Position numbers and translations under genes: made by a program | NCBI GenBank assembly: GCA_013823325.1 | Contig: PNLY01000010.1 | Coordinates: 33,258 to 97,257 of the forward strand | Length of the DNA: 64,000 bases | Reading direction: 5' to 3' | Source: Methylobacterium sp. | GTDB lineage: Bacteria > Pseudomonadota > Alphaproteobacteria > Rhizobiales > Beijerinckiaceae | Notes under the pieces: generated by a model | The model's database searches: none | What the model saw: the letters and a program-made list of their open reading frames with translations, nothing else | Told to the model about the DNA's origin: nothing | Part shown: positions 23,103 to 46,328 of the stretch, in pieces | How positions within the stretch are numbered: the stretch's first letter is position 1 | Layout of the letters: the number at the start of each line of letters is the position of its first letter

Positions 23103-23588
23103 TCAAGCGGAATGGCCACCCTCTCCGTCTGAATTTCGAGGGTCGACGATGACACGGCGGATCGCCTCAACTTGCACCGGGCCGCCGTCGGCGCCGCTCA
23201 GCTCGACCTGATGCTTGTCGCTGTACTTCTTCGGCTGAAGCTTGCCGGCCATCCATTTGCGGGCTTCGACGCGAAGGGCCGACCGCCGAAGCGCCTCGCC
23301 ATTCTCGCGCCAGCCAATGTTCTCGCCCTCGTCGTTCTTCCGCTCCATCCAATCGTTCGTGCCGTCGTCGGCAATCTCGAGGATTTCGTCGAAGAGCGCG
23401 TCGGCCTGAGCTTCGCGCGCACGGGCGTACTGATCCGAGAATGGCTTGTTCTCATTCAGCCACTTGAAGACCGTGCTGGTGGCCGGCATCCCTTCATCCG
23501 CACAAATCGACCGAAGGCTGTGGCCGTCGGCGATGCGCTCGCAGATGAGATCGGCAACTGCCTGGGTGAACTCGGACTGGCGAGCCAT
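23103..23588 (-). CDS. Terminase small subunit
   Basis: A 161-residue protein with an N-terminal helix-turn-helix (QAVADLICERIADGHSLRSICADEGMPATSTVFKWL; key part GHSLRSICADEGMPATSTV). A coiled-coil central oligomerisation region follows (ARAREAQADALFDEILEIADD) and a basic C-terminal part contains WMAGKLQPKKYSDK, common to small terminases of alphaproteobacterial phages. It recognises the packaging site and loads TerL. It is the first gene after the terminator-like hairpin, so probably the first late gene. Confidence 0.87.
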   Translation of the reverse strand: MARQSEFTQAVADLICERIADGHSLRSICADEGMPATSTVFKWLNENKPFSDQYARAREAQADALFDEILEIADDGTNDWMERKNDEGENIGWRENGEALRRSALRVEARKWMAGKLQPKKYSDKHQVELSGADGGPVQVEAIRRVIVDPRNSDGEGGHSA

Positions 23589-23612
23589 GAGAACCTACTG
23601 GTGGGACGCAGC

Positions 23613-23640
23613 AAAAAGCCCGATCGCGAGGACCGGGCTT
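23613..23640 (-). terminator. Terminator-like hairpin upstream of the late operon
   Basis: On the minus strand AAGCCCG, an 11-base loop and CGGGCTT form a 7-bp stem that runs into TTTTT. It lies between the end of the NusG-like operon and the TerS start, so it could stop early-left transcription before the late genes unless it is read through. Confidence 0.65.
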
Positions 23641-23814
23641 CAGCGCCTTGGGGCGGCGGTACATCCGCGCTCGCCCCAGGAAGGGGGATTTCAGGGACAA
23701 GCCTCCAAACCATGCGGTGGCATGACGGGGTCCGGGGAGCATCAGCCGAAGCGAGCACACGCGCCGAACAATCCGTGAACATCGTCTCGCACATATCGCG
23801 CGGGCGCGCAAGCG
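23641..23814. other. Gap between hairpin and small ORF; nothing assigned
   Basis: About 175 bases with no credible gene. A late promoter or the packaging start site (cos or pac) could lie here because TerS follows, but no direct motif was recognised. Confidence 0.4.
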
Positions 23815-24024
23815 TTAAGCGGGATCACCGTCGTCCTTAAGCTCTTGCTCGGGTAGCTTTTCCTCGGCGAGCTTCGTATAGCGCTCTCGCTCCTCCTCAG
23901 TTGCCGGATTGACCTGAGCATCTGGCCCAGATCCTCGCTTAACGAACTCGGGTCTCCAGGGCCGGCCCGGGTGGTCTCTCTCAAACATTTCACCGGCGAG
24001 CTTATCCACCACGTCGCGCTTCAT
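23815..24024 (-). CDS. Small acidic hypothetical phage protein
   Basis: ATG 24024 gives a 69-residue protein. The sequence is polar: FERDHPGRPWRPEFVKRG in the middle, and NPATEEERERYTKLAEEKLPEQELKDDGDPA as an acidic helical tail (key part EEERERYTKLAEEKLPEQ). It follows the NusG-like gene in the same direction with a 34-base gap and ends before the terminator-like hairpin. I do not recognise a family. Confidence 0.6.
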   Translation of the reverse strand: MKRDVVDKLAGEMFERDHPGRPWRPEFVKRGSGPDAQVNPATEEERERYTKLAEEKLPEQELKDDGDPA

Positions 24025-24058
24025 ACTTCGGCCTTTCGCCCTTAACACCCCGATCCTT

Positions 24059-24739
24059 TCAGGCAGCGCGCAATGAAGCAAGCGTCAGCGTGGCTTGAAC
24101 CTTTCTCCCGAACGCCTCGATCAGCACCTTGGCTTCATCCAGGCCGATGCAGTCCACGATTGTCGCCTGTAGCCGCATGAACGGCCCTTCAATGATGGTT
24201 GCAGCATCGCCGCGGCTGAATGGTGCCTTCGGCTGTTCTGGCTTCGGCGCTTTGATTCCGTTCTGGTAATCGGCGATCGCGCGCAGGGCGGCGGCCGGCA
24301 CGCGCACCCAGCCATTGCTGTCTGAAACGATCGCTTGGACACCGTCGATGTCGAAGACGCTGCCAATGGGTTTGCCCTTGACGATGAAGCGCTGAGGCTC
24401 GGCTTCACCGGCGAGTAGCGGGCCTGTGGCGAACAGATATCGCGGGAAGGTCGCGATATCGGCGTCGAACGTGGTGCGCTTGCCGACAGTGACGGTCTTG
24501 TGCTCGCTGGGCCAGAACACCGAACATCCGGCCTCCTCAAGCCCGGCTTGAGCACGCGCCTCGCCGCGCGGAGAGGTGAAGATCAGAAACCATTTCGTCT
24601 TGGGCCGAAGATCGAGCTCGGGTGCTGGATTCAGCTTCCGGATCTCGCGACGCTCGCCCGGCTCAGGCGGCTGCGCCGCTGCCTTTGCGGCTGCTTTGGC
24701 CCATCGATCCTGGCGCCGGTTGCTGTTCGACTTGGCCAT
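24059..24739 (-). CDS. NusG-like transcription elongation/antitermination protein
   Basis: ATG 24739 gives 226 residues. Residues 1-45 are a basic leader. Residues 48-156 resemble the NusG N-terminal domain: KWFLIFTSPRGEARAQAGLEEAG, then FPRYLFATGP, where the PRYLF element corresponds to the conserved PGYVxV strand. Residues 174-224 form a KOW domain (FSRGDAATIIEGPFMRLQATIVD). NusG paralogues bind RNA polymerase and reduce pausing or termination at target operons. The gene lies in the early-left operon, upstream of a terminator and then the late genes, so a Q-like role in late expression is plausible inference. Confidence 0.8.
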   Translation of the reverse strand: MAKSNSNRRQDRWAKAAAKAAAQPPEPGERREIRKLNPAPELDLRPKTKWFLIFTSPRGEARAQAGLEEAGCSVFWPSEHKTVTVGKRTTFDADIATFPRYLFATGPLLAGEAEPQRFIVKGKPIGSVFDIDGVQAIVSDSNGWVRVPAAALRAIADYQNGIKAPKPEQPKAPFSRGDAATIIEGPFMRLQATIVDCIGLDEAKVLIEAFGRKVQATLTLASLRAA

Positions 24740-24753
24740 CGGAGAATGCTCGG

Positions 24754-25623
24754 TCAGTGGTGGACTTGCGCGGCGAAATACCAGCCGTCGGCTTGCTGCT
24801 CGGGGTAGAACTTGCAGAGGCCTGGCTTGTGGCCGGCCTTGACCCTGGCGAACCATTCCTCGGTGTCGCGCTTGACGAATATCTGCTCGGGACGGTCGGA
24901 CATGGCCGCGACGGCGTAGTCGTTCCACCGCTCCTGGTTGAGCCAGGTTACGGCCTGAGCACATTTCTCGGTGCCAGCGCGCCCTGCCCTGCGCTCGATC
25001 TCGGCGAAGCGCTTGGCGCCGGCGATGATGGCCGCCGGTTCGGCCCCGCGCTTCACGGCCCGTTCGAACTTCTCCTTGGCCGGTTTCTTCGGATCCGAGG
25101 CCTCGCCGCGATGGGGATAGGCCTTCCAGAATTCATCGAAATCCGCATCCGGCGCTGGTCGCGTCGGCTTGCCGACCGACCGAACGTTGGTCGTAGAGCT
25201 CTTGGATTCAGGATTGGGTTCTTTCTTCCCTTCCCTATCCTCTCCTAATAGCTCTGCGTCCGCTGAGCGTTCGTTGAGCGGACGTTCAGCGTTCGCTTGA
25301 CGGGCTGCGACCGATGCGCGAGCGGAGGCCTTTGCCTTGGCGGACTTTTGCTGAGCGACCGCGATTTCTTGGTCTATGCGGGCGTGTCGCCAATCGTCGC
25401 CATCGATATCGAAGAACTCTTCGAGGGTCGGCTTGGCGGCCGCCCACTCGGCATCAGTCATGCGGGCGATGCGCGCGAGCTTTCGATCGTCAGCCGGCAG
25501 CGGCTTCTCCCGCTGCCAGTAATTCATGATCAGCATGAGATAGGCGCCGTGCTCGGCCGCGCTGAGGTGCGCGGTGTCGGCGAGATAATCGGCGACGAAA
25601 AGCGGCATGTACGGGGCACTCAC
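24754..25623 (-). CDS. DUF1376 (YdaU-like) phage replication-region protein
   Basis: The GTG at 25623 overlaps the upstream stop (GTGA) and gives 289 residues. Residues 1-90 are DUF1376: PYMPLFVADYLADTAHL, EHGAYLMLIMNYWQREKPLP and RKLARIARM. The middle is Ala/Lys/Glu-rich linker. Residues 180-289 include FWKAYPHRGEASDPKKPAKEKFERAVK and TWLNQERW, a helical domain common to phage replisome-organiser-like proteins. It probably helps initiate phage replication, but catalytic motifs are absent. Confidence 0.78.
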   Translation of the reverse strand: MSAPYMPLFVADYLADTAHLSAAEHGAYLMLIMNYWQREKPLPADDRKLARIARMTDAEWAAAKPTLEEFFDIDGDDWRHARIDQEIAVAQQKSAKAKASARASVAARQANAERPLNERSADAELLGEDREGKKEPNPESKSSTTNVRSVGKPTRPAPDADFDEFWKAYPHRGEASDPKKPAKEKFERAVKRGAEPAAIIAGAKRFAEIERRAGRAGTEKCAQAVTWLNQERWNDYAVAAMSDRPEQIFVKRDTEEWFARVKAGHKPGLCKFYPEQQADGWYFAAQVHH

Positions 25624-25829
25624 CGCAGCGCCTCCAACTCTTCGACCTTGAGCGCGACAGACCAGCCGACGGGACCGCCGTCGAGCTCGACATAGATGCG
25701 GTCTAGACCGCAGGGGCGGCCGCGGTAAGCGCGTTGGATCGTGCCGTGCTTGCCGGCGTGCTCGCCTGCGATGACGCGGACGCGGGCGCCTTGGGAGAGA
25801 GGATCGGGTTGGAGAGCGGCGCGGGTCAT
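25620..25829 (-). CDS. KOW-motif mini-protein
   Basis: A 69-residue protein with overlapping starts and stops on both sides (ATGA upstream, GTGA downstream). Residues 14-50 form a KOW-like motif: GARVRVIAGEHAGKHGTIQ followed by IYVELDGG. KOW motifs bind RNA or ribosomal partners. It is two genes upstream of the NusG-like gene that also has a KOW domain, so the two may act together. This is inference; it may also just be a stand-alone SH3-like fold. Confidence 0.65.
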   Translation of the reverse strand: MTRAALQPDPLSQGARVRVIAGEHAGKHGTIQRAYRGRPCGLDRIYVELDGGPVGWSVALKVEELEALR

Positions 25830-27055
25830 GCGACCTCCCCGAACAGTGGTCCGAGGTCCTGTGGCTTGTCCGCGATCTTCGCCTTGATGGACTCGCGGGC
25901 GCGTTCATCGGGGCCGGCCATCGCGAGCTTCATTCTGCGGGCTATATCGGCCTGATAGGCTTCCTCGCGCTCGACCAGCACAGCACGGAAGCCCTCCCGG
26001 AAGGCCGCCTCGCCCGTCGTGCCGGTGCCGGCGAAGGGATCGAGAACGGTGCCGCCCGGCGGCGTCACCAGCCGGCAGAGCCATTGCATCAGGTCCACCG
26101 GCTTTACCGTCGGATGCTTCGAGCCGACCCGGTCATTGGCATCGGCCTTGGAACTATAGAAGAATCGTGCTGCAGACCCGCTATCACCCCGCGGTTCAGC
26201 CCGTCCGGCTCTGGACGGCATGTCGCCATAGACATTCGCGAACGGTGACGAAGGCTCGTTGCCAGTGACGACGCCCTGCTGACCAGCAGATTCTGGGAAA
26301 GCCGACACGACCTCATCGCTGCCGTCGTGGAGAATGTTGGCAGGCCAGCGGCCAGGCTTCATTTCGCCGTGGTAAAGCGGCCCATCCCCTTCCGGCTTCC
26401 AGGTCCCGCCCTCCTTGTCGAGAGTGGCCCCGGGCTTGAAGCGCTTGATCGTATAGGCGCCACCTTGCGCATCGTCCGCGTGGACGCGGCATCCGTCGAT
26501 GTTCAGCGCTCCCGTGCCGTGCTGGTGCACGGTCTGTGCGACGGTGCCGGAGAGGGACTTGCGAGCCAGAACGATAGGCTCCCAAGCCGGCTTTAGGGCC
26601 GTGCCCCAACCCGCCCAGTCGCCTTTTTGATTGTGAGACTTCGGGAACCCGGAGCCGTAAACCCATGCGAGTTGGTCGCGGATTTCGAAGCCCGCGTCTT
26701 CGATCGCGCAGACCATCCGGTGGTAAGTCCTCGTGCCGGAGAAGGCGACGCAGTGACCTCCGGGTTTGAGAACACGCAGCACATCTTCCCAGAACTCAGC
26801 GGCGAAGGCTGTCTCGCCAGTGTCCCATCTTTGACCCATGAACCCGCGGCCCGTCCGGCCATAGGGGTTCTCGGCGTTCTCTGTCCGCTCGCTGCGTGGC
26901 GAATTCGCGAAGCGCTTCACGATTGAAACCAGGGCATAGGGCGGGTCAGTGACGACAGAGTCGATAGAGGCATCGGCGAGGCCGCGCAGCACCTCCCTGC
27001 AATCTCCAGGATGCAGCACCACGCGGCCGTCAAGAAAGGAACGAGGCTTGCTCAC
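25826..27055 (-). CDS. Site-specific DNA methyltransferase (beta-type, DPPY)
   Basis: The GTG at 27055 overlaps the upstream stop (GTGA) and gives 409 residues. The catalytic motif DPPY is at 37-40 and the AdoMet-binding DPFAGTGTTGEA starts at about 339. That order (catalytic first) is the beta class of amino-methyltransferases, with DPPY usual for N6-adenine. HPTVKPVDLMQWLCRLVTPPG precedes the AdoMet motif. Between them is a long central region that would hold target recognition. No restriction gene is adjacent, so it is a solitary phage methyltransferase. Confidence 0.87.
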   Translation of the reverse strand: MSKPRSFLDGRVVLHPGDCREVLRGLADASIDSVVTDPPYALVSIVKRFANSPRSERTENAENPYGRTGRGFMGQRWDTGETAFAAEFWEDVLRVLKPGGHCVAFSGTRTYHRMVCAIEDAGFEIRDQLAWVYGSGFPKSHNQKGDWAGWGTALKPAWEPIVLARKSLSGTVAQTVHQHGTGALNIDGCRVHADDAQGGAYTIKRFKPGATLDKEGGTWKPEGDGPLYHGEMKPGRWPANILHDGSDEVVSAFPESAGQQGVVTGNEPSSPFANVYGDMPSRAGRAEPRGDSGSAARFFYSSKADANDRVGSKHPTVKPVDLMQWLCRLVTPPGGTVLDPFAGTGTTGEAAFREGFRAVLVEREEAYQADIARRMKLAMAGPDERARESIKAKIADKPQDLGPLFGEVA

Positions 27056-27306
27056 GCCGCCCTCTTCCGTTCCTGCTCGCGAGCCGAGGCGATACCGTTG
27101 GCCGCAGCAGCCGGCGTGCATTCGAGGCGCCAAGCGATATCGACGTTGTCGAGGCCGGATCGGAACAGCGCGAGCGCGGCGGAGGCGCCGAACTCATCGA
27201 GCTCTTCGTCTCGGACCGTGCGCCCATGGCCGACCAGCATCAGCGGCCGGACGCCACAGTCGAGTTTGAGCGGGCGAAGGCTGAGGTTGACGCCGTGCGC
27301 GATCAT
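27052..27306 (-). CDS. Small hypothetical protein in early-left operon
   Basis: ATG 27306 overlaps the GcrA-like stop (ATGA) and gives 84 residues; its own stop overlaps the methyltransferase start (GTGA). The sequence includes NLSLRPLKLDCGVRPLMLVG and a helical C-terminal part (ALFRSGLDNVDIAWRLECTPAAAANGIASAREQ) that could be a helix-turn-helix (key part LDNVDIAWRLECTPAAAANG). A small DNA-binding role is possible. Family not recognised. Confidence 0.6.
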   Translation of the reverse strand: MIAHGVNLSLRPLKLDCGVRPLMLVGHGRTVRDEELDEFGASAALALFRSGLDNVDIAWRLECTPAAAANGIASAREQERKRAA

Positions 27307-27866
27307 GCGGCCCTCCTGATGAGGCGTTTGAAGTTCAGCCGGCGGTCGGTGTCGCGGGTGAGCTCTCGCGAGGAGCTGAGCCCCTGGCAGTGAGAGCAAT
27401 AGGAGCCGTTTTCGAGGGCGGGTAGCCCGCAGAAGAACTTCTCCGAAAACGGGGCGTTCGTCGGCCAGAGCGGCCACCGGCAGAGGCCGTCGGCGATCTG
27501 GAAATAGGACAAGGCCTTCGGCTGCCAGACCGCAGCCACGAGGACCGGATCCGGCTTCGGCTGCTCGGCCAGGGCCACCACAGGAGCAAGTGCCGGAATC
27601 GGAACCGGGGCCAGCTGCGGCGTAGGCGCCTTCGGATCAGTCTTGGCCTGTCGCGGGATGGCGGCAGAGCTTGTCGCCCGCGCACCGCCGCCGATCTTGC
27701 GCCGATGCCGATAGACGACCCCAGCAACAACGCCTCTCTGGATGGCGAACTCCTCCGCGATCCGGGTGTAGCTCTTGCCCGCAAGCGCCGCCTGGACAAT
27801 GGCGAGCTTAATGGCCTCGGGATTGCGGTTCTGTGCGACCGCAAGCAGCCGGACAGTCCGGCTCAT
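27303..27866 (-). CDS. GcrA-family cell-cycle regulator
   Basis: A 187-residue GcrA-like protein. Residues 18-58 are a homeodomain-like helix-turn-helix ([20 protein letters not shown]). Residues 60-125 are a Pro/Ala-rich linker. Residues 126-162 are the GcrA C-terminal module: CRWPLW at 129-134, FFCG at 144-147 and SYCSHC at 156-160, a pattern used to contact sigma70 in Caulobacter GcrA. GcrA acts with adenine methylation to set promoter activity. It is coupled to a GapR-like gene upstream and a methyltransferase gene two genes downstream. Confidence 0.83.
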
Positions 27867-28105
27867 GGCGCCTCTCCGACCGCCTGGAGGTACAGGTCGA
27901 GGATCGCTTCCTCTTCTTTGCGCTCGTCGAGATCGCGCTTGCGCAGTGCGATGACCTTGCGCAGCACCTTGACGTCGTAGCCACTGGCCTTGGCCTCGGA
28001 ATAGACCTCGCCGATATCGTCGGAGATGGTCTGTTTCTCTTCCTCAAGCCGCTCGATGCGCTGCACGATGCTCGTGAGCTGATCGCCTTGAACCAGATCT
28101 TCCAT
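27863..28105 (-). CDS. GapR-like DUF2312 nucleoid protein
   Basis: An 80-residue protein from ATG 28105 (a GTG at 28108 is also possible). Residues 12-75 match DUF2312/Gap[37 protein letters not shown] and [10 protein letters not shown]. GapR binds overtwisted AT-rich DNA ahead of replication forks and transcription in alphaproteobacteria. Length equals the host family. Its stop overlaps the GcrA-like start. A phage copy could tune replication or transcription of phage DNA; that is inference. Confidence 0.85.
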
Positions 28106-28455
28106 CACTCTCGCTCCATCAGTTTCCGCGCCGTCGCCAGCGCCGTTTCAATCTCGCCCACCGCAGACAGACGAGGGTCCGCGCCAGTTGCGCGAAGGCA
28201 GGCCAGCTCGTGTTCGAGCGCCGAAATTTCATGTTCAATCTCGCGGATGAGCAGGGTCTCAGCGCGGGCGCGTAGCCAGTCGTCGATGCGCTTGAGGCGG
28301 CCACGCGCCAGCGTCTCCAGCGTCCCCGGCACCGTGCCGAGGCGATGGGCAAGCCGCTGGCGCGCGACGGAGAGCGACCCGGAACGCCGGGTCTCCCTGA
28401 GCTCCAGCCGCGCGATGATGTCGCGGCTCTGGTCCCGAAACTCTACGCTGGACAT
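28105..28455 (-). CDS. Helical hypothetical phage protein
   Basis: ATG 28455 gives 116 residues. [44 protein letters not shown] in the first half (key part [20 protein letters not shown]) looks like a DNA-binding helix pair. The second half is a coiled-coil-prone helix ([20 protein letters not shown]). It begins the run of tightly coupled genes that includes GapR-like and GcrA-like proteins. Similar small helical proteins occur in rhizobial prophages; function unknown. Confidence 0.65.
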
Positions 28456-28506
28456 GGGTGGCTCATTTGTCCGTCTGGGATGGATGATCGGTCGCAAGGT
28501 TCCGTG

Positions 28507-28526
28507 CTCCTGTCTGAGGACAGGAG
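28507..28526. repeat. Perfect 8-bp inverted repeat
   Basis: CTCCTGTC, TGAG, GACAGGAG. It lies in the untranslated gap between the Cro-like gene and the downstream operon, so it could form a leader hairpin or be an operator. No T-run follows on either strand. Confidence 0.7.
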
Positions 28527-28541
28527 TGACGGGAGGTGCCA

Positions 28542-28733
28542 GTGCAGAGGTTGGATTCGATCGTTCGCGAGTTGCTGGCAGGCGTCCGCGCGAGGATCGA
28601 TGCAGAAAATCTGAGAGACGTTGTCGATAACGACAACACTCGGGACGGCGCGCGATTTCAGCGCGTCGCTTCCGAGCTTGAGGCGCTGCGTCGGAGGAAC
28701 AGGCGCAAGCGGCGCGCAAGATCGAAGGAGTGA
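28542..28733 (+). CDS. Small basic hypothetical protein, antisense to early-left transcript
   Basis: A GTG at 28542 follows GGGAGG with 5-base spacing, which gives 63 residues, ending 5 bases before the convergent Cro-like stop. The product is charged: RELLAGVRARIDAENLRDVV then SELEALRRRNRRKRRARSKE with a basic C-terminus. The ribosome-binding site is the main support. It would be antisense to the early-left transcript. The region could instead be a plain leader. Confidence 0.45.
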   Translation: MQRLDSIVRELLAGVRARIDAENLRDVVDNDNTRDGARFQRVASELEALRRRNRRKRRARSKE

Positions 28734-28738
28734 GGCCA

Positions 28739-28963
28739 TCACGCGGCCTCGGTCTTGGGGGCGGGCTTGGCGCCGAAAATCTCTGGGAGCAGATCATGGC
28801 GCGAAATGCCGGTAGTCCGCTCGATCTCGACGACCAAGCGCGGCGACGGCCGGCGCCTCCCCTTCTCCAAGTCGTGGAGATAGCCGGGGCTCGTGCCGAT
28901 CTTGGCGGCCATCCCCTGCAGCGTCAGCTCGTTGCGAGCGCGGTATAGATGAAGTGGCGACAT
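28739..28963 (-). CDS. Cro-like HTH regulator
   Basis: ATG 28963 gives a 74-residue XRE-type protein; an ATG at 28981 would put the first operator inside the gene. The helix-turn-helix is NELTLQGMAAKIGTSPGYLHDLEKG. The recognition segment GTSPGYLHDLEK is close to GTSKGYLSDMER in the divergent CI-like protein, so both may bind the same operators. It is first in the early-left operon, the usual place of Cro. Confidence 0.8.
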   Translation of the reverse strand: MSPLHLYRARNELTLQGMAAKIGTSPGYLHDLEKGRRRPSPRLVVEIERTTGISRHDLLPEIFGAKPAPKTEAA

Positions 28964-28971
28964 GAGAGAAT

Positions 28972-28988
28972 GTTCGCACATGGCGAAC
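28972..28988. promoter_or_regulatory. Operator OL1 (perfect palindrome)
   Basis: GTTCGC-ACATG-GCGAAC, perfect 6-bp arms with a 5-bp spacer, in the divergent space between the Cro-like and CI-like genes. The same palindrome recurs at 31170-31186. Confidence 0.8.
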
Positions 28989-29005
28989 GCGACCGCAAGT
29001 CAAAA

Positions 29006-29022
29006 GTTCGCAAATGGCGTGA
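29006..29022. promoter_or_regulatory. Operator OL2 (imperfect)
   Basis: GTTCGC-AAATG-GCGTGA. The left arm is complete and the right arm keeps GCG. Its first base is 34 bp from that of OL1. Confidence 0.65.
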
Positions 29023-29027
29023 CGCGG

Positions 29028-29056
29028 AATCGCGGCCAGCGAACTACTATCTGGCC
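29028..29056 (+). promoter_or_regulatory. Operator OL3 half-site and candidate leaderless cI promoter
   Basis: AATCGC-GGCCA-GCGAAC (29028-29044) keeps the right arm. TACTAT at 29045-29050 is a fair -10 box 6 bases before the CI-like ATG, and there is no ribosome-binding site, so the transcript may be leaderless. GGCCAG/CTGGCC arms flank this box. Confidence 0.5.
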
Positions 29057-29458
29057 ATGGATTTTGACGACGAATTCTTCCTGGGCGCGAAGCTCAAAAT
29101 CTGGCGCAAATCCAGAGGGCTGACGCTTGAGCAGATGGCCGCCGATATAGGCACGTCGAAAGGCTACCTATCGGATATGGAGAGGGACAAGCGCCCTCTC
29201 ACGTCGCGCTGGCTTGCGAAGGTTGCCGGGGTCTACGGGACCAAGGTTTCAGAAATCATCGGGGCTCCTCCGCCGTCTGCCGACCCCGGCGACGACGAAG
29301 AGCGAATGGCGAAGCAGATCCTTCGATTGAAGGGGCTTGGGAAGATCGACAAGGTTCGATGGTATCTGGATCTGCTCGAAGCAGAAGCTCAAAGTGCGCC
29401 ATCGCCTTCTGACGAAGATGCCACGGCAGCGCGGCAAAGCGCGAAATCAGGTCGATAA
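29057..29458 (+). CDS. CI-like repressor, XRE type, no peptidase domain
   Basis: ATG 29057 gives 133 residues and leaves the operators upstream. Residues 9-60 form the helix-turn-helix (LKIWRKSRGLTLEQMAADIGT, recognition GTSKGYLSDMER). Residues 75-105 are a helical segment that may dimerise. There is no S24/LexA-like peptidase domain, so RecA-stimulated self-cleavage is not expected and induction would need another route. It is divergent to the Cro-like gene across the operators. Confidence 0.82.
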   Translation: MDFDDEFFLGAKLKIWRKSRGLTLEQMAADIGTSKGYLSDMERDKRPLTSRWLAKVAGVYGTKVSEIIGAPPPSADPGDDEERMAKQILRLKGLGKIDKVRWYLDLLEAEAQSAPSPSDEDATAARQSAKSGR

Positions 29459-29594
29459 GTTCGGTATCCTCGTCCATCCCACCCCCTCACGCCACCGTTC
29501 TTATTTTGTTCACTATGAAGCTGACGTAAAGCCGCCCAACTGACAAGGGGAGTCAGCAGAGGAATTCTGTCCTAGATTGGTTAACGGGGTCAGC

Positions 29595-29816
29595 ATGGAC
29601 AAGGTCGACGCCATCGCCGCCAGTGGGCTTGTCTCTTCCGCGACGCTGGCGGCACTCGTCTCGATGCTCCGACGCCGTCACCTCATCTCAGAGCAGGAAG
29701 AGCGGGAGATATACGAACACGCCCTGATGCTGCTTGAGATGCAGCAGGGGCACGCGCCGGAGATCGCAGAGGTCTACGCCGCCGCTCGCGGGGTGATCGA
29801 GGATCAGTTGCGGTAG
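29595..29816 (+). CDS. Small helical hypothetical protein downstream of cI
   Basis: ATG 29595 gives 73 residues after a 136-base gap from the CI-like gene. The sequence is helical: AASGLVSSATLAALVSMLRRRHLIS then QEEREIYEHALMLLEMQQGH (both typical of small phage helical bundles). No motif identifies a function. It may be co-expressed with CI or have its own promoter in the gap. Confidence 0.65.
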   Translation: MDKVDAIAASGLVSSATLAALVSMLRRRHLISEQEEREIYEHALMLLEMQQGHAPEIAEVYAAARGVIEDQLR

Positions 29817-29875
29817 CGTCCAGATTACTATCGCGGTCGGCTTGGTGCTCCTCGCCGTCGGCTAGCCATCAATGA

Positions 29876-30883
29876 TCAGTTGTCAGGAATTAGGTCCGTC
29901 TGATCCCCAGGCTTCGGGAAAACCTTAGAAAAAAGCCGCTTGAACATAGCCCAATTGTCTGATGCCTGCATGAGCGTGATCGTCTTCGTGATTTGCTTTT
30001 CGAGATGCGGGTGGCCGACGTCCTCGGTCAAAAACTGGTGGTGCCGAAGACGACGCCTTCCGAGATCGTCCTTGGGGTTCTTCCGCTTCAGCTCCTCCAA
30101 CACGCCTTCGGGCAACCGCTCGTAGATGAACTGATTGGTGAACTTCCCAACCACGCCGGGGCGTTTTACCGAGGCCGGGTCATACGGCCAATCATGAAGG
30201 CGGAACATCTCCTCATAGAACGAGCTCGGAAAGCGCTGCGTCCAGGGGAGCAAATCTGGCGCGATATATGCCTCCAGAATCTTATGCAGAGCGTCTCGCT
30301 TGCGAACCTCTTGGAAGCCGGTCGCCTCGTCGACAAGAGCGACAATTCCAACTCGCGCCAGACCGCGAATGATCAACTCACATTGCTGGGCAATTGGGAG
30401 TTGCTGCTTCTGGAGAACGCCTGCTGCCCGGGCCGCGAGGACAGCTTCACATAGCTCGACTAGGGTCTCAGCTTCGTACCCGTACGCGCGGCCACCAGTA
30501 GGGGTTATGAAGATTATTGGGTTGCGGACTCGCTCCGCTAAATCATTGAAAACGTAAGGCTTAATCCGCTCTCCTGAGGTAAAAAGCTCGAAACGATTCA
30601 GGCCGCGCACCATGCTCCCGCCGACCGCCATGTTCATTGCACGCTGCATGCCAGTTACGGTCAGAACGCGCCGTTCATCGTCGAGCACATAGCAGGGGAT
30701 TTCGATCTCCCCTATTTTCAGGGGCTTCTTATCGTCGCCGAATTCCGCCCGAGGGAGTTGGTCGCGCTCCGGGTCGGCTTTTGCCCACCTGGCTTGGGCG
30801 CCTGCCGACGCTACTTCACGCCTTCGTTCCGGCGTCATTCTTTCGAGTCGAGCGAGCCCTGCCTTTTTGTGTTGATCTGCCAT
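29876..30883 (-). CDS. P63C-domain protein
   Basis: A 335-residue protein. Residues 1-40 contain a basic, charged leader (GLARLERMTPERRREVASAG). Residues 50-290 include VLTVTGMQRAMNMAVGG, NPIIFITPTGGRAYGYEAE, TLVELCEAVLAARAAG and PWTQRFPSSFYEEMFRL, characteristic of the P63C domain found in phage and plasmid proteins of unknown role. It is on the minus strand between cI and the early-right operon, with its own palindromic upstream region, so it is probably expressed independently in the lysogen. Confidence 0.82.
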   Translation of the reverse strand: MADQHKKAGLARLERMTPERRREVASAGAQARWAKADPERDQLPRAEFGDDKKPLKIGEIEIPCYVLDDERRVLTVTGMQRAMNMAVGGSMVRGLNRFELFTSGERIKPYVFNDLAERVRNPIIFITPTGGRAYGYEAETLVELCEAVLAARAAGVLQKQQLPIAQQCELIIRGLARVGIVALVDEATGFQEVRKRDALHKILEAYIAPDLLPWTQRFPSSFYEEMFRLHDWPYDPASVKRPGVVGKFTNQFIYERLPEGVLEELKRKNPKDDLGRRRLRHHQFLTEDVGHPHLEKQITKTITLMQASDNWAMFKRLFSKVFPKPGDQTDLIPDN

Positions 30884-30907
30884 TTCAATCGCCCCTTGCT
30901 AACTCAC

Positions 30908-30928
30908 GCTAGCATAATGCATGCTAGC
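30908..30928. repeat. Perfect 8-bp palindrome upstream of P63C gene
   Basis: GCTAGCAT-AATGC-ATGCTAGC, 25 bases upstream of the P63C start. It may be an operator for that gene. Its inner GCAT-N5-ATGC form resembles the repeats at 30986-31027. Confidence 0.75.
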
Positions 30929-30985
30929 GACCGATAGCACAAGCTGGACGCTGGCGCTCAGCCCCCACGGCAGGTCTTTGCGAAA

Positions 30986-31027
30986 CCAGCAGGTGATGCT
31001 GGTCACTCGATAACATGCAGGTGATGC
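30986..31027. repeat. Two GCAGGTGATGC repeats with palindromic flanks
   Basis: The 11-base GCAGGTGATGC occurs at 30989-30999 and 31017-31027, 28 bp apart. The first lies in the perfect palindrome CCAGCA-GGTGA-TGCTGG (30986-31002). They may be sites of a second regulator. Confidence 0.65.
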
Positions 31028-31060
31028 AGGCCGGCATGAGCACCGCCCAGCCTCTCCGAA

Positions 31061-31085
31061 CCCCGCCATCCCGGCGGGGTTTTTT
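31061..31085 (+). terminator. Rho-independent terminator, plus strand
   Basis: CCCCGCC, ATCCC loop, GGCGGGG and TTTTTT. A strong terminator in a region with no plus-strand gene upstream, so it may end a small RNA transcribed from around 30930. Confidence 0.8.
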
Positions 31086-31114
31086 GTTGCCTGCTGACAG
31101 GGGAAGGCAGGGGC

Positions 31115-31186
31115 GTTTATCGGGAGCGAACAAAAGTTCGCTTTAGGCGAATATAGCGCTTGCATGTTAGTTCGCGATCTGCGAAC
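31115..31186. promoter_or_regulatory. Operator cluster OR for the early-right operon
   Basis: Three sites: 31115-31131 (right arm GCGAAC only), 31136-31152 GTTCGC-TTTAG-GCGAAT, and 31170-31186 GTTCGC-GATCT-GCGAAC (perfect). The last two start 34 bp apart, as in OL1 and OL2. The cluster ends 45 bases before the first gene of the early-right operon. Likely bound by the CI-like and Cro-like proteins. Confidence 0.75.
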
Positions 31187-31231
31187 TTCACTCCATCGAA
31201 CGAGAGCCTGCCTCTCAGATGGAGCAAACAG

Positions 31232-31681
31232 ATGGCCCCTCGGTTTCTGACCACGGCCGGCGAGATCGACGAGACCAAGGTCTCGATCGCGATCGAGCGC
31301 AAGGCAGACGAGCTGTCCCGATGGCGGGGCGTCCCGATTGCCGATTGCGTACCGGAGGCACGCGCGCAGTACCGGAATGCTGCCAAGGCCGAGCGCATGC
31401 AGTGGCTCCTCGACCGTGAGGATGCCATGGTCGCGGCAGCACGGGCCTTCGTGGCTGGGGCTCTGGCCGCGATGGCCCCGCCTCGCGCCTTCTATCGGAT
31501 CGAAGGCATCCCCGACGGCGGCTCCTTCGAGCGCGCCCAGCACTGCCAGTCCGAGGTCTTCCGCATCCAGCAGGATGATCGCCGGGCGACCTTCGCGAAG
31601 TGCCTCGCCTCGCTGGATCGGTCGCTCGCTGGCATCGCCGCGTCGGACGACATCACCCGCCACCTGCAGGCTGCGGAGTGA
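31232..31681 (+). CDS. First gene of early-right operon, hypothetical
   Basis: ATG 31232 follows GGAG and gives 149 residues. FLTTAGEIDETKVSIAIERKADELSRWRGVPI and a long helical part with FRIQQDDRRATFAKCLASLDRSLAG (key part QQDDRRATFAKCLASLDRSL) are visible. No domain is recognised. As the first gene after the operator cluster it is probably an immediate-early protein. Its stop overlaps the next start (TGATG). Confidence 0.7.
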   Translation: MAPRFLTTAGEIDETKVSIAIERKADELSRWRGVPIADCVPEARAQYRNAAKAERMQWLLDREDAMVAAARAFVAGALAAMAPPRAFYRIEGIPDGGSFERAQHCQSEVFRIQQDDRRATFAKCLASLDRSLAGIAASDDITRHLQAAE

Positions 31682-37916: not shown

Positions 37917-38201
37917 ATGCCGCGCGCTCCGATGCCCTTCCTCGCACCCGACGACGCGGCTATCCGGCCGGCGCCGCGGCGTGGGCTGTCGTGCGTCGAG
38001 GCCGCCGACTACATCGGCGTTTCGGTCACGAAGTTCCTCGAGCTCGTAGCCAGCGACCGGATGCCCCCTGCCAAGCGGATCGACGGCCGCAGGATCTGGG
38101 ACATTCGGAAGCTGGATCAGGCATTCGATGCTATCGACGGCGACGAGGATGAGGCCCAGCCCGGCACGCCCTTGCCGAAGAAGCGGGAGATCGTGCTGTA
38201 A
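37917..38201 (+). CDS. Excisionase-like HTH protein
   Basis: ATG 37917 gives 94 residues. The core GLSCVEAADYIGVSVTKFLEL then RMPPAKRIDGRRIWDIRKLDQAF is the winged-helix (MerR/AlpA-like) pattern of phage excisionases. The stop overlaps the integrase start (TAATG). An excisionase would direct the integrase towards excision. Confidence 0.77.
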   Translation: MPRAPMPFLAPDDAAIRPAPRRGLSCVEAADYIGVSVTKFLELVASDRMPPAKRIDGRRIWDIRKLDQAFDAIDGDEDEAQPGTPLPKKREIVL

Positions 38202-39349
38202 TGCTCGGCATGACCACCACCGCGCGCCTGAAGTACGTCACCACCGATGTCTCGGAAGGGATCACTCGGTACTATCTGCGGCTGCCCGGCGAAAAGACCA
38301 AGGCTCGCCTGCCCGGCCAGCCGGGTGAGGAAATCTTCATGGAGGCCTATTGGGCTGGCCTGAAGAAGCTTCCGCAGCCAAGGCGCTCAGACGGCACGCT
38401 CGCAAAGGCTGACGCCAAGGGCACGCTCAGCTGGCTGGTCGACGAGTATTTCCGCAGCGCGGCGTTCAAGGGGCTGGCTGAGGCCACGCAGGGCGCACGG
38501 CGGAACATCCTCAAGGTCGTCCTGTCGACGGCCGGGAACGAGCGTGTCGTCGACATCACCGAGGACGTGATCCGCGCCGCGCGCGATCGACGCGCTTCGA
38601 CGCCGGCCGCGGCTAACACCTTCCTGAAGGCGATGAGCCACCTGTTCACCTTCGCCATCGAGTACAAGCACGCGAAGAAGAACCCGGTCCTGGCGGTCGA
38701 GCGCGTCAAGCACAAGTCCGAGGGGCACCACACCTGGAGCGAAGCCGAGATCAATCGCTTCCTGGAGGCCTACCCGCTCGGCACCATGGCGCACCTGTGC
38801 ATGTGCATCATGCTCTACACCGGCGTGCGCGTGTCCGACGCGGCGGTGATGGGGCGCCAGCACGTGCACAAGGGCTACCTAAGCTTCCGCGCCCAGAAGA
38901 ACAAGGTCGTGGTCGATATGCCGGTGGCGCCGGAGCTGCAGGCCGCCATCGAAGCGGTGCGCGTTTCCCGCAAGGGCCACATGCATTTCCTGATCAACGA
39001 ATGGGACAAACCTTTCTCGGTGAAGGGCCTTGGTCAGCGCATGCGCAAGTGGTGCGACACGATCGGACTGAACCATTGCTCCAGCCACGGCATCCGCAAG
39101 GCCGGCGCGACGATCGCCGCAGACAACGGCGCATCCGAACACGAGCTGATGGCAACCTTCGGATGGGAATCGCCGAAGCAGGCCGCGCTCTACACGAAGA
39201 AGGCCAATCGGCGCCGGCTGGCCGGGTCCGGAGCGGCCAAAATCACGCTCTCGAAGAACGAAACCGCGAACAAAATTGTCCCGCCATCTGAATGGGTGGA
39301 AACCCGGCGGGACAATGAAGCCGAAAACCGTAAGGAAATCAGCGCATGA
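38201..39349 (+). CDS. Tyrosine integrase
   Basis: A 382-residue tyrosine recombinase. The catalytic residues visible are Arg210 (YTGVRVSD), His296 and Arg299 (SSHGIRK), Trp322 (FGWES, replacing the usual second His) and the nucleophile Tyr331 (LYTKKANR). Residues 1-70 would be the arm-binding domain and 75-165 the core-binding domain. It ends 11 bases from tRNA-Cys, which suggests that gene as the attachment target. Confidence 0.9.
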   Translation: MLGMTTTARLKYVTTDVSEGITRYYLRLPGEKTKARLPGQPGEEIFMEAYWAGLKKLPQPRRSDGTLAKADAKGTLSWLVDEYFRSAAFKGLAEATQGARRNILKVVLSTAGNERVVDITEDVIRAARDRRASTPAAANTFLKAMSHLFTFAIEYKHAKKNPVLAVERVKHKSEGHHTWSEAEINRFLEAYPLGTMAHLCMCIMLYTGVRVSDAAVMGRQHVHKGYLSFRAQKNKVVVDMPVAPELQAAIEAVRVSRKGHMHFLINEWDKPFSVKGLGQRMRKWCDTIGLNHCSSHGIRKAGATIAADNGASEHELMATFGWESPKQAALYTKKANRRRLAGSGAAKITLSKNETANKIVPPSEWVETRRDNEAENRKEISA

Positions 39350-39359
39350 TAAAAGGGAT

Positions 39360-39433
39360 TGGAGGCCTCGCCCGGAATCGAACCGGGGTGCAAGGATTTG
39401 CAGTCCTCTGCGTAACCACTCCGCCACGAGGCC
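39360..39433 (-). tRNA. tRNA-Cys (GCA)
   Basis: Read on the minus strand from 39433: acceptor GGCCTCG pairs with CGAGGCC, discriminator T and encoded CCA. The anticodon loop CTGCAAA gives GCA. The 3' end faces the integrase gene, so it is the likely attR-reconstituted target. Confidence 0.93.
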
Positions 39434-46127: not shown

Positions 46128-46193
46128 GCCGCGAGCTGCGGCCTGAGACAGGCGTGACAGGCGCAAGCCTTTCTGCCACAAGCGCTTACGAGA

Positions 46194-46271
46194 GACGGGG
46201 GCGTTCGCCGGGAGGCGAGCTGAGAAGCACCCTTCGAACCTGAACCAGATCATGCTGGCGGAGGGAGTCGC
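46194..46271 (+). promoter_or_regulatory. TPP riboswitch (THI box)
   Basis: Key conserved segments are CTGAGA at 46220-46225, ACCCTT then GAACCTGA at 46236-46243, and GCGGAGGGAGTC at the 3' end, the TPP-aptamer arrangement. It is in the leader of the thiX-thiY genes and should turn them off when TPP is abundant. Confidence 0.9.
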
Positions 46272-46328
46272 TCGGGGCAGCCTCGCAAACGCTTGTCCCC
46301 GCGCCGCCTTCCACCGGAAAGGCGGACC

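Follow-up and report, generated by a model that had tools for sequence, protein, structure and literature searches.

A GcrA-family, GapR-like and DNA methyltransferase gene set in the early operon of a Bosea prophage recurs in other phages

A ~46-kb prophage is inserted at tRNA-Cys in a genome of the soil bacterium Bosea, and we analysed a window of 64,000 nucleotides that includes its right attachment repeat. The element carries terminase, portal, tail-sheath, tape-measure and integrase genes, and the two copies of a 16-bp direct repeat are separated by 45,954 bp (39359-39374 in the window and contig C10:26662). From the 'up' gene through GapR to the DUF1376 gene, neighbours overlap by 1-4 bases when read directly, so the early operon looks translationally coupled; the replication gene and the NusG-like antiterminator gene are downstream members of the same string (Table 1). 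A sequence-only reading of this DNA had described GapR-like, GcrA-like and adenine-methyltransferase-type genes in one coupled operon on a prophage. Our results bear this out, since the three genes lie on the minus strand where they had been placed, profile scores back their identities, adjacent genes overlap, and the phage structural and integrase genes are accompanied by the repeat at tRNA-Cys. That reading had not listed the small helix-turn-helix (HTH)-like gene between the GcrA and methyltransferase genes. The 'up' gene gave no family match in Pfam, PHROG and NCBIfam scans, and its relatives are present in the phage Pam5 and in the elements L119 and L120.

Table 1. Features of the prophage early region and right end, in window coordinates
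Feature	Coordinates	Strand	Evidence or remark
NusG/RfaH-like antiterminator	24059..24742	-	PF02357; phrog_6386; RfaH model 40.4 bits, under cut-off
DUF1376 primosomal/replication protein	24754..25623	-	PF07120 102 bits; phrog_9327 152 bits (both scored on the in-frame stretch 24754-25662)
KOW-motif protein, 69 aa	25620..25829	-	PF00467 26.2 bits, cut-off 22.3
DNA methyltransferase, 409 aa	25826..27055	-	PF01555; phrog_67; N6/N4 type; DPPY early, DPFAGTGTTG late
Small HTH-like gene, 84 aa, directly after GcrA	27052..27306	-	conserved in relatives; three-helix predicted C-terminal half
GcrA-family gene, 187 aa, phage lineage	27303..27866	-	PF07750; profile-profile match to chromosomal GcrA
Sigma-interaction-domain-like part of GcrA, ~residues 112-163	27378..27533	-	CRWPLW..CG..YCSHC; invariant alignment columns
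HTH DNA-binding part of GcrA, ~residues 17-58	27693..27818	-	alignment, motif table, model helices
GapR-like gene, 81 aa	27863..28108	-	PF10073; GTG start; ATG possible at 28105
'up' gene upstream of GapR, 116 aa	28105..28455	-	32% to Pam5_55; HMM matches in relatives
Cro-like repressor, first gene of leftward operon	28739..28981	-	HTH_3, phrog_35
cI-like repressor, divergent	28949..29458	+	HTH_31/HTH_3, phrog_7241; start probably near 29057
Four GTTCGC/GCGAAC half-sites, cI/cro gap	28972..29044		likely repressor operators; first extends into cro ORF start
Second GTTCGC/GCGAAC half-site cluster, rightward operon	31126..31186		site scan; includes perfect GCGAACAAAAGTTCGC
Prophage integrase	38201..39349	+	phrog_1 122 bits
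Right attachment repeat, 3' end of tRNA-Cys	39359..39374		16-bp direct repeat; partner contig C10:26662-26677, outside window

The half-sites in the cI/cro gap are likely repressor operators. At the prophage's own half-site density, four or more per 100 bp would occur by chance with a frequency of about 8e-6, which is not a corrected probability, the motif having been picked by eye. A sigma70 consensus scan of positions 23500-31500 gave 1 promoter-like site, where 1.1 would be expected at random; this site lies outside the cI/cro gap. A GANTC site at the early promoter had been considered as a sign of GcrA control. Over eight repressor/cro gaps, 1 GANTC was observed and 0.62 were expected; only the window's gap has one (29027) and 0/7 gaps of the other phages do, so this site was dropped as evidence.

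The GcrA-family protein scored above the curated PF07750 cut-off across both domains (36.9 bits, cut-off 26.9, E 5.9e-9, residues 28-160), which places it in the family. In agreement with this, its phage lineage matched a profile of 23 chromosomal GcrA rows over both domains (probability 99.6%, E 2.8e-24), and the protein itself matched 7ye1 (E 1.7e-4). The NCBIfam GcrA equivalog NF050816 was not reached (29.4 bits, cut-off 280). In GcrA proteins, a linker joins the DNA-binding domain to a sigma-interacting domain (PMC7403470). In the window protein the cysteine core of the latter, CxWP..CG..YC..H, reads CRWPLW..CGLP..YCSHC; its last position is C, compared to H in the 23 chromosomal rows, and the chromosomal GDP is missing. 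The CRWP..CG..YC core is kept among the phage-lineage relatives aligned. The recognition helix is changed, with QRGVVAG in place of TRNAVIG, and the sequence RNAVIGK(V/I)HRLGL, present in 23/23 chromosomal rows, is absent. The structure model of this protein was poor (mean pLDDT 62), and a fold search with it returned no GcrA among the 50 matches listed, which were mostly generic HTH and sigma-domain proteins at E of at least 0.26.

In the GcrA tree, whose deep forks are weak and many of whose phage branches are long, the window protein sits in a phage-only group with weak support (73/80), apart from chromosomal GcrA, and a recent host origin is not supported. Among 397 Hyphomicrobiales genomes, 15 passed E 1e-20 for GcrA, and all of these but the window's own (14) carry the chromosomal motif type CxWPxGDP; note that scoring was limited to eight candidates per genome, which makes the absence of the phage type soft. 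A family-level search matched 104 of 149 genomes, and 25 loci fetched from these comprised 22 of the chromosomal motif type and 3 of the phage type (the window's own, G148 and G087).

The GapR-like protein matched PF10073 with 107.2 bits (E 3.1e-31, cut-off 22.6) and can be aligned to the solved GapR structures 6cfx and 6jyk. The sequence-only reading had named an HMM search as a possible refutation; both PF07750 and PF10073 came out over cut-off. The host copy, on contig C56, is 89% identical to the GapR-like protein over the domain, with a dN/dS of ~0.19. Of the residues named for GapR in PMC7373187 (K34, K56, K59, R65 and K66, with K56, K59 and K66 facing DNA), the alignment shows K34, K56, R65 and K66 retained, together with K49, and K59 replaced by R; Caulobacter K42 is a glycine here. 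Caulobacter GapR is described as a tetramer around overtwisted DNA that stimulates gyrase (PMC8360656, PMC8510090). Phage and chromosomal rows are intermixed in the GapR tree (8 label changes, shuffled mean 8.3, on 72 columns only) and did not separate into phage and host clades. The proposed phylogenetic comparison with the host copies set GcrA apart, weakly, and left GapR mixed.

The methyltransferase scored 94.4 bits against PF01555 (E 1.3e-26) and 236 bits against phrog_67. A CcrM identity was considered and rejected: the enzyme reaches 62.7 bits against the CcrM model NF050803, whose cut-off is 830, and has no CcrM-type long C-terminal extension, carrying instead a long stretch between its two catalytic blocks. 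The alignment to 6pbd stops at chain residue 267/366 and window residue 383/409. Note that the cut-off is strict in genome searches, since 0/14 control genomes (9 ring; Caulobacter included) pass it and the host CcrM on contig C50, at 616.6 bits, is itself below it; the gap between the window enzyme and host CcrM is about tenfold. Among the relatives of the window enzyme, none with a characterised target was found.

The product of the small HTH-like gene matched nothing in Pfam, PHROG or NCBIfam at E 1, and its relatives are 29-66% identical. Its model is confident over residues 41-84 (pLDDT block means 89-95), and a fold search gave nothing under E 0.001, with mostly helix-turn-helix proteins among the 50 matches listed. 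A paralogous relationship to the DNA-binding domain of GcrA was also considered, but the hhalign probabilities for it are weak (8.6% and 20.6%). Searches with it matched 7/397 genomes of the order (its own and six weak) and 5/61 Bosea genomes, 4 of these 5 also having GcrA.

The set of three genes is not a one-off. Seven distinct elements, phages or prophages, have GapR, GcrA and methyltransferase genes together in a single fetched early region: the window, Bosea Root381 (L010), L037, G087 (L137), G541 (L136), the Caulobacter phage DMCA (L183) and Mwe-JY25 (L007), where GcrA is a C-terminal piece only. In 6/7, all but Mwe-JY25, the three stand on one strand in the order GapR, GcrA, methyltransferase. 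The genes in the slots turn over, with at least four methyltransferase types and two GapR types, host-like in some elements and a divergent extended form in others. The slot after GcrA and the small HTH gene holds differing methyltransferases; in L037, where the enzyme adjoins GcrA, it is 57% identical to phiLM21_p027, and that of G087 reaches only 50.6 bits to the phiLM21-type model, with Pfam matches under cut-offs. The same slot holds a DUF1064-like protein in Pam5 and a VRR-NUC-like protein in L120 (both Pfam matches under cut-off) and nothing in L119; an 'HPPC' C5-type gene of L120 (764-1366), seen by eye, was excluded from the methyltransferase count. L038 and G542 lack GcrA but retain the small HTH gene and a methyltransferase. 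The DUF1376 and NusG-like genes come next in the window, L010, L037/G550 and L120.

Phage GcrA, GapR and CcrM-like methyltransferases are each already known, one at a time in the literature consulted; we found no literature report linking the three. The phiCbK-type gp222 is, as in the window, a GcrA-family protein of an alphaproteobacterial phage (PMC3556154). However, the phiCbK record is long (215.7 kb, a large phage), its GcrA carries the motif CRWPYGDP and is placed, by a long branch, with the chromosomal side of the tree, and neither a methyltransferase nor GapR is annotated within the 6.5 kb fetched around it. The methyltransferase phiLM21_p027, with a published GANTC specificity, also lies in the early region right before replication genes (PMC5537653), and its relative fills the same slot in the sister prophage L037. 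The window enzyme (DPPY, 409 aa) belongs to a different type, and searches of 12.6 kb around phiLM21_p027 with the GcrA and GapR models detected neither gene. In DMCA (PQ480021), as in the window, GapR is followed on the same strand by GcrA and then by a methyltransferase, here 52% identical, all downstream of a repressor. It differs in having more genes interposed among the three, a GcrA of another branch (CRWPLE, SRSAVIG helix) and no small HTH gene detected by profile model. The Pseudanabaena phage Pam5 (ON014757; PMC9382816) shares the GcrA lineage, preceded by the 'up' gene and followed by the small HTH gene, but profile models detected no GapR or methyltransferase in the fetched 17.5 kb, and the gene in the methyltransferase slot is annotated as an endonuclease. 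Among the chromosomal proteins GcrA, CcrM and GapR (7ye1, 5yix, 6pbd, 6jyk), GcrA and GapR are of the same families as their window counterparts; the host genes are on separate contigs (GcrA on C132, CcrM on C50, GapR on C56), whereas those of the window are in one operon.

Our preferred reading, to which we give a probability of about one half, is that of an early module, probably repressor-controlled, that would bias the sigma70-RNA polymerase and DNA topology in favour of the phage and modify phage DNA. The operon would serve a temperate phage early in lytic growth and is probably kept silent in the lysogen by a cI/cro-type switch, and its induction would supply a gene set that readies the cell for phage transcription and replication. 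The GcrA-family protein, with its sigma-binding core kept, should bind region 2 of host sigma70 and may help to open promoters preferred by its own changed DNA-binding domain, most likely phage promoters. GapR should bind the overtwisted DNA arising from phage forks and strong phage transcription and aid its relaxation by gyrase and topoisomerase IV. The methyltransferase, an orphan, would modify phage (and host) DNA, perhaps to protect that DNA or to mark promoters. A 26-gene prophage-like operon of Brevundimonas depends on host GcrA (PMC7987155), so proteins of the GcrA type are able to drive phage genes. Against this reading, predicted GcrA sites are reported to have no positional bias in any subset of the phage genomes examined in PMC9437464, the methyltransferase is not constant among the elements, GapR mostly occurs without GcrA, and the window GapR has a glycine for K42.

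It is possible, and we keep it as a tentative alternative, that the methyltransferase only shields phage DNA from host restriction while GcrA and GapR act without it. The enzyme belongs to a very widespread phage family (771 phage records have a relative, 364 of them Mycobacterium phages) and matches many type II methyltransferase models in PADLOC, and scans (Pfam, PHROG, NCBIfam) of ten proteins from the operon and its neighbourhood showed no restriction enzyme. Different enzymes in the slot are also what would be expected of anti-restriction cargo. However, GANTC, a regulatory site of the host, is also the site of some methyltransferases that alphaproteobacterial phages encode next to replication genes (PMC5537653), and for at least a part of these enzymes this points to a regulatory role.

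Somewhat doubtful, to our mind, is that the three genes are independent early cargo, meeting by coincidence and shared descent in a permissive early stretch where alphaproteobacterial phages would often have GapR and orphan methyltransferases, and sometimes GcrA. A GapR relative occurs in 155 phage records, besides the 771 with a methyltransferase relative, and the methyltransferase slot may hold another gene or nothing. Moreover, GapR is usually found without GcrA: among the best 80 of 136 GapR-selected IMG/VR loci, profile models detected, within the flanks fetched, a GcrA that has the C-terminal cysteine motif in 2, both on the opposite strand, only partial GcrA matches without the motif in 12 more, and a motif-bearing GcrA together with a methyltransferase in 0/80. 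Elements from GcrA-based searches speak against this view: of 11 (window counted, large phages and duplicates excluded), 7 have a GapR match in the stretch fetched (L119 at 15 bits only) and 5 have all three genes, although these counts are no test of significance because the frequency of GapR in such phages has no denominator. Gene order is also constant despite gene replacement, that of the Caulobacter phage DMCA being the order of the Bosea prophages.

That the module redirects the host cell cycle, phage GcrA and methyltransferase mimicking GcrA/CcrM and pushing the host into a replicating state, is unlikely: the idea is in print for phiCbK GcrA (PMC3556154) and hinted at for phage GANTC methyltransferases (PMC5537653, PMC9437464), and L037 pairs an RNAVIG-helix GcrA with its relative of a GANTC enzyme, but the window has a changed helix and a methyltransferase that is not CcrM-like, the repressor/cro gaps are not rich in GANTC, and the prophage has 53 of these sites compared to 151 expected from base composition (flanks, 85 compared to 155). 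The sequence-only reading had offered both this possibility and that of a module deciding when phage promoters fire. The identities, coupling and prophage setting on which it drew stood, and the set recurs in other phages, but the window methyltransferase is not CcrM-like and the window GcrA helix is changed; the promoter version appears to fit the domain anatomy better.

A further reading of the module, which we consider improbable, is a phage-owned epigenetic promoter switch. Here, the GcrA-like sigma cofactor would read the mark made by its neighbour, reader and writer having been re-specified together, in a private methylation-gated sigma70 programme that is on only once the phage's own DNA is marked, with GapR clearing the supercoils of the same transcription burst. 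L037 pairs its host-like helix with a GANTC-type writer, and the window its changed helix with a different writer. A tie between helix type and the presence of a methyltransferase was also considered: by eye, 4/4 elements with a host-like helix have one (L010, L037, G087, DMCA), compared to 2/5 with a changed helix (window and G541, not L119, L120 and Pam5), and these nine, with Ssp-JY42, Labrenzia V1 and JY25 excluded, are too few to support it.

The conserved string with its swapped genes suggests a shared tool for taking over transcription and DNA replication. Since the operon occurs repeatedly with its order kept while its genes are replaced, a joint role becomes testable, and the elements that combine a GANTC-type enzyme with a host-like helix, or another enzyme with a changed helix, provide a natural series for asking if a sigma cofactor and a methyltransferase co-evolve.

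A fetched early region holding GapR, GcrA and a methyltransferase together is present in seven distinct elements: the window, the Bosea Root381 prophage (L010; L011 and L013 were counted as the same element), the sister prophage L037 from IMG/VR, G087 (L137), G541 (L136), Caulobacter phage DMCA (L183) and phage Mwe-JY25 (L007). L037 and Bosea G550 (L134) are apparently one element: their GapR domains are identical and their HMM scores the same. The sequence-only reading had placed these three genes together in a phage operon; this was borne out, and recurrence of the set makes the observation stronger than its reader knew.

The window is part of contig C10 in a genome of 6.03 Mb, and its prophage encodes terminase, portal, head, tail-sheath, tape-measure and integrase genes. 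The whole element measures 45,954 bp, as set by a 16-bp direct repeat present at the tRNA-Cys 3' end and at C10:26662. The leftward early operon opens with the cro-like gene and an unknown gene, continues with the genes for GapR, the GcrA-like protein, the small HTH-like protein and the methyltransferase, and ends with those for a KOW protein, a replication protein of the DUF1376 family and a NusG/RfaH-like protein, with overlaps of 1-4 bases between genes from the unknown gene through the DUF1376 gene.

Coordinates of the features in the window
Feature	Position	Strand	Remark
Prophage part	1-39374		
Methyltransferase	25826-27055	-	
Small HTH-like gene	27052-27306	-	no Pfam, PHROG or NCBIfam match
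GcrA-like gene	27303-27866	-	
GapR gene	27863-28108	-	ATG at 28105
cro-like gene	28739-28981	-	
cI-like gene	28949-29458	+	
Half-site cluster	28972-29044		four GCGAAC/GTTCGC, cI/cro gap
GANTC	29027		only one in the cI/cro gap
Partial anti-repressor family match	29876-30883		adjoins cI-like gene; phrog_2899, 36 bits; best match phrog_2384, function unknown
Half-site cluster	31126-31186		four GCGAAC/GTTCGC, before rightward operon
tRNA-Cys 3' end	39359-39374		16-bp repeat
TPP riboswitch	46187-46283	+	beyond prophage

The order GapR, GcrA, methyltransferase on a single strand is found in 6 of the 7 elements; Mwe-JY25 has instead a C-terminal GcrA piece, a split methyltransferase and then GapR. 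DMCA gave Pfam scores of 74.8 bits for GcrA and 110.6 bits for GapR. In G541 the methyltransferase comes after a helicase gene and an HNH gene. At least four enzyme types occupy the methyltransferase place: a 409-aa DPPY type (window and DMCA), a 253-aa DPPY enzyme (Root381), a phiLM21-type enzyme 57% identical to the phage GANTC methyltransferase phiLM21_p027 (L037) and an SPPF enzyme (G541, also locus L038). The NPPF enzyme of G087 is distantly related to the phiLM21 type at 50.6 bits, and for the L037 and G087 enzymes the Pfam matches are below cut-offs. Seven elements (the window, Root381, L037, L119, L120, G541 and the Pseudanabaena phage Pam5) have the small HTH-like gene directly after GcrA; in L038 and G542 it is kept without GcrA.

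The identity of GapR is certain (107.2 bits), and the protein can be aligned to solved GapR structures. An HMM search also upheld membership of the GcrA family (36.9 bits against a Pfam cut-off of 26.9), but the equivalog model for GcrA gave only 29.4 bits, far under its cut-off of 280. The GcrA-like protein belongs in the family because a 7-row phage profile matches a 23-row chromosomal GcrA profile over both domains (probability 99.6%, E 2.8e-24). The methyltransferase matches PF01555 (94.4 bits) and phrog_67 (236 bits), and its relatives are present in 771 phage records, 364 of them from Mycobacterium phages. We rejected CcrM as its identity: it scores 62.7 bits against a cut-off of 830, it has no long C-terminal extension when aligned to 6pbd, and the host has its own CcrM on contig C50 (616.6 bits).

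The host GcrA lies on contig C132 (194.1 bits). All 23 chromosomal GcrA rows have RNAVIGK(V/I)HRLGL and CxWPxGDP, while CRWPLW with a cysteine at the last motif place occurs in the window, L119, L120, Pam5, Root381, L037, G541 and G087; the recognition helix is the host-like RNAVIG in Root381, L037 and G087 and altered in the other five. In the tree, eight phage rows (window, L119, L120, Pam5, G541, Root381, L037 and Labrenzia V1) form a weakly supported group (73/80) separate from chromosomal GcrA, and several of the phage proteins sit on long branches. The row closest to the window protein is L119 (99/94), 48% identical in alignment A3.

Two more GapR genes are present in this genome, on contigs C56 and C8, and GapR was found in all 61 Bosea genomes searched. 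Across the aligned domain the window GapR and the C56 copy share 89% protein and 85.6% DNA identity (dN 0.09, dS 0.48), with no change in residues 42-78. Three lysines in the first half, at positions 11, 25 and 32 when numbered from the ATG at 28105, are replaced in the window protein, position 32 being the counterpart of Caulobacter K42. Caulobacter K56, K59 and K66 are named as DNA-facing in PMC7373187, and at these places the window GapR has K, R and K. The C8 copy (L144, G000:C8:31000-46000) may sit on another prophage because its domain is identical to that of L048, a copy on an IMG/VR contig; the surrounding stretch holds a cII-like match (48.6 bits) and a weak cro-like match. At the early-operon place, the window and JY25 have a short, host-like GapR and DMCA a short one, and the GapR of L037, Root381 and G541 has a long C-terminal extension (215-282 aa in all; 186-282 aa counting L038).

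The half-site clusters at the two early control regions, which include a perfect GCGAACAAAAGTTCGC, hold 8 of the 48 GCGAAC/GTTCGC half-sites within window bases 1-39374 and are likely operators of the cI-like repressor. Because the clustered half-sites read as repressor operators, the leftward operon would be silent in the lysogen. GANTC gave no support for GcrA-type control: the window's cI/cro gap has its single site, and none of the repressor/cro gaps of seven other phages has any. The prophage contains 53 copies of the motif where its composition predicts 151, a stronger depletion than in the flanks, with 85 copies where 155 would be expected.

We then counted co-occurrence in 11 GcrA-found elements: the window, L010, L037, L119, L120, G087, Pam5, JY25, Ssp-JY42, MW202785 and Labrenzia V1. 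Left out were the large phages (those like phiCbK and those of Brevundimonas), Phaeobacter MD18 and near-duplicates (e.g. JY07, Yong-M4-211), and DMCA, found via its methyltransferase, and G541, found via the small HTH gene, lie outside this sample. In fetched stretches of unequal length, GapR matched in 7 (L119 at only 15 bits), a methyltransferase in 6 and both in 5. Among GapR-selected IMG/VR loci (best 80 of 136), a cysteine-motif GcrA occurred in 2, on the opposite strand, a methyltransferase by the models used in 10, and the two together in none. Therefore, in these samples, which carry no true background rate, GcrA is accompanied by GapR much more than GapR by GcrA. Alphaproteobacterial-type GapR and/or GcrA also appear in Pseudanabaena, Microcystis and Synechococcus phage records (L006, L007, L008, L009, L178); alphaproteobacteria present in the cultures may be the real hosts of these phages.

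Published accounts of phage GcrA cover phiCbK (PMC3556154), Pam5 (PMC9382816) and a coral-associated virus linked to Rhizobiales (PMC11309003), and a table of phiLM21-like prophages lists GcrA and one UPF0335 protein (PMC12429752). The literature also reports GANTC-specific phage methyltransferases adjoining replication genes (PMC5537653), T4 DsbA as a GapR homologue (PMC7824862), a Brevundimonas prophage-like operon dependent on host GcrA (PMC7987155) and a GcrA-site scan across phage genomes in which positional bias was absent (PMC9437464). GcrA, GapR, DUF2312 and UPF0335 all go unmentioned in a comparative study of alphaproteobacterial phages, and a search mostly outside subscription literature found no published report linking GapR, GcrA and methyltransferase in one operon. 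An early operon that takes over sigma70 transcription and DNA topology fits best, and the cell-cycle control proposed from the sequence would be a possible consequence of this take-over.
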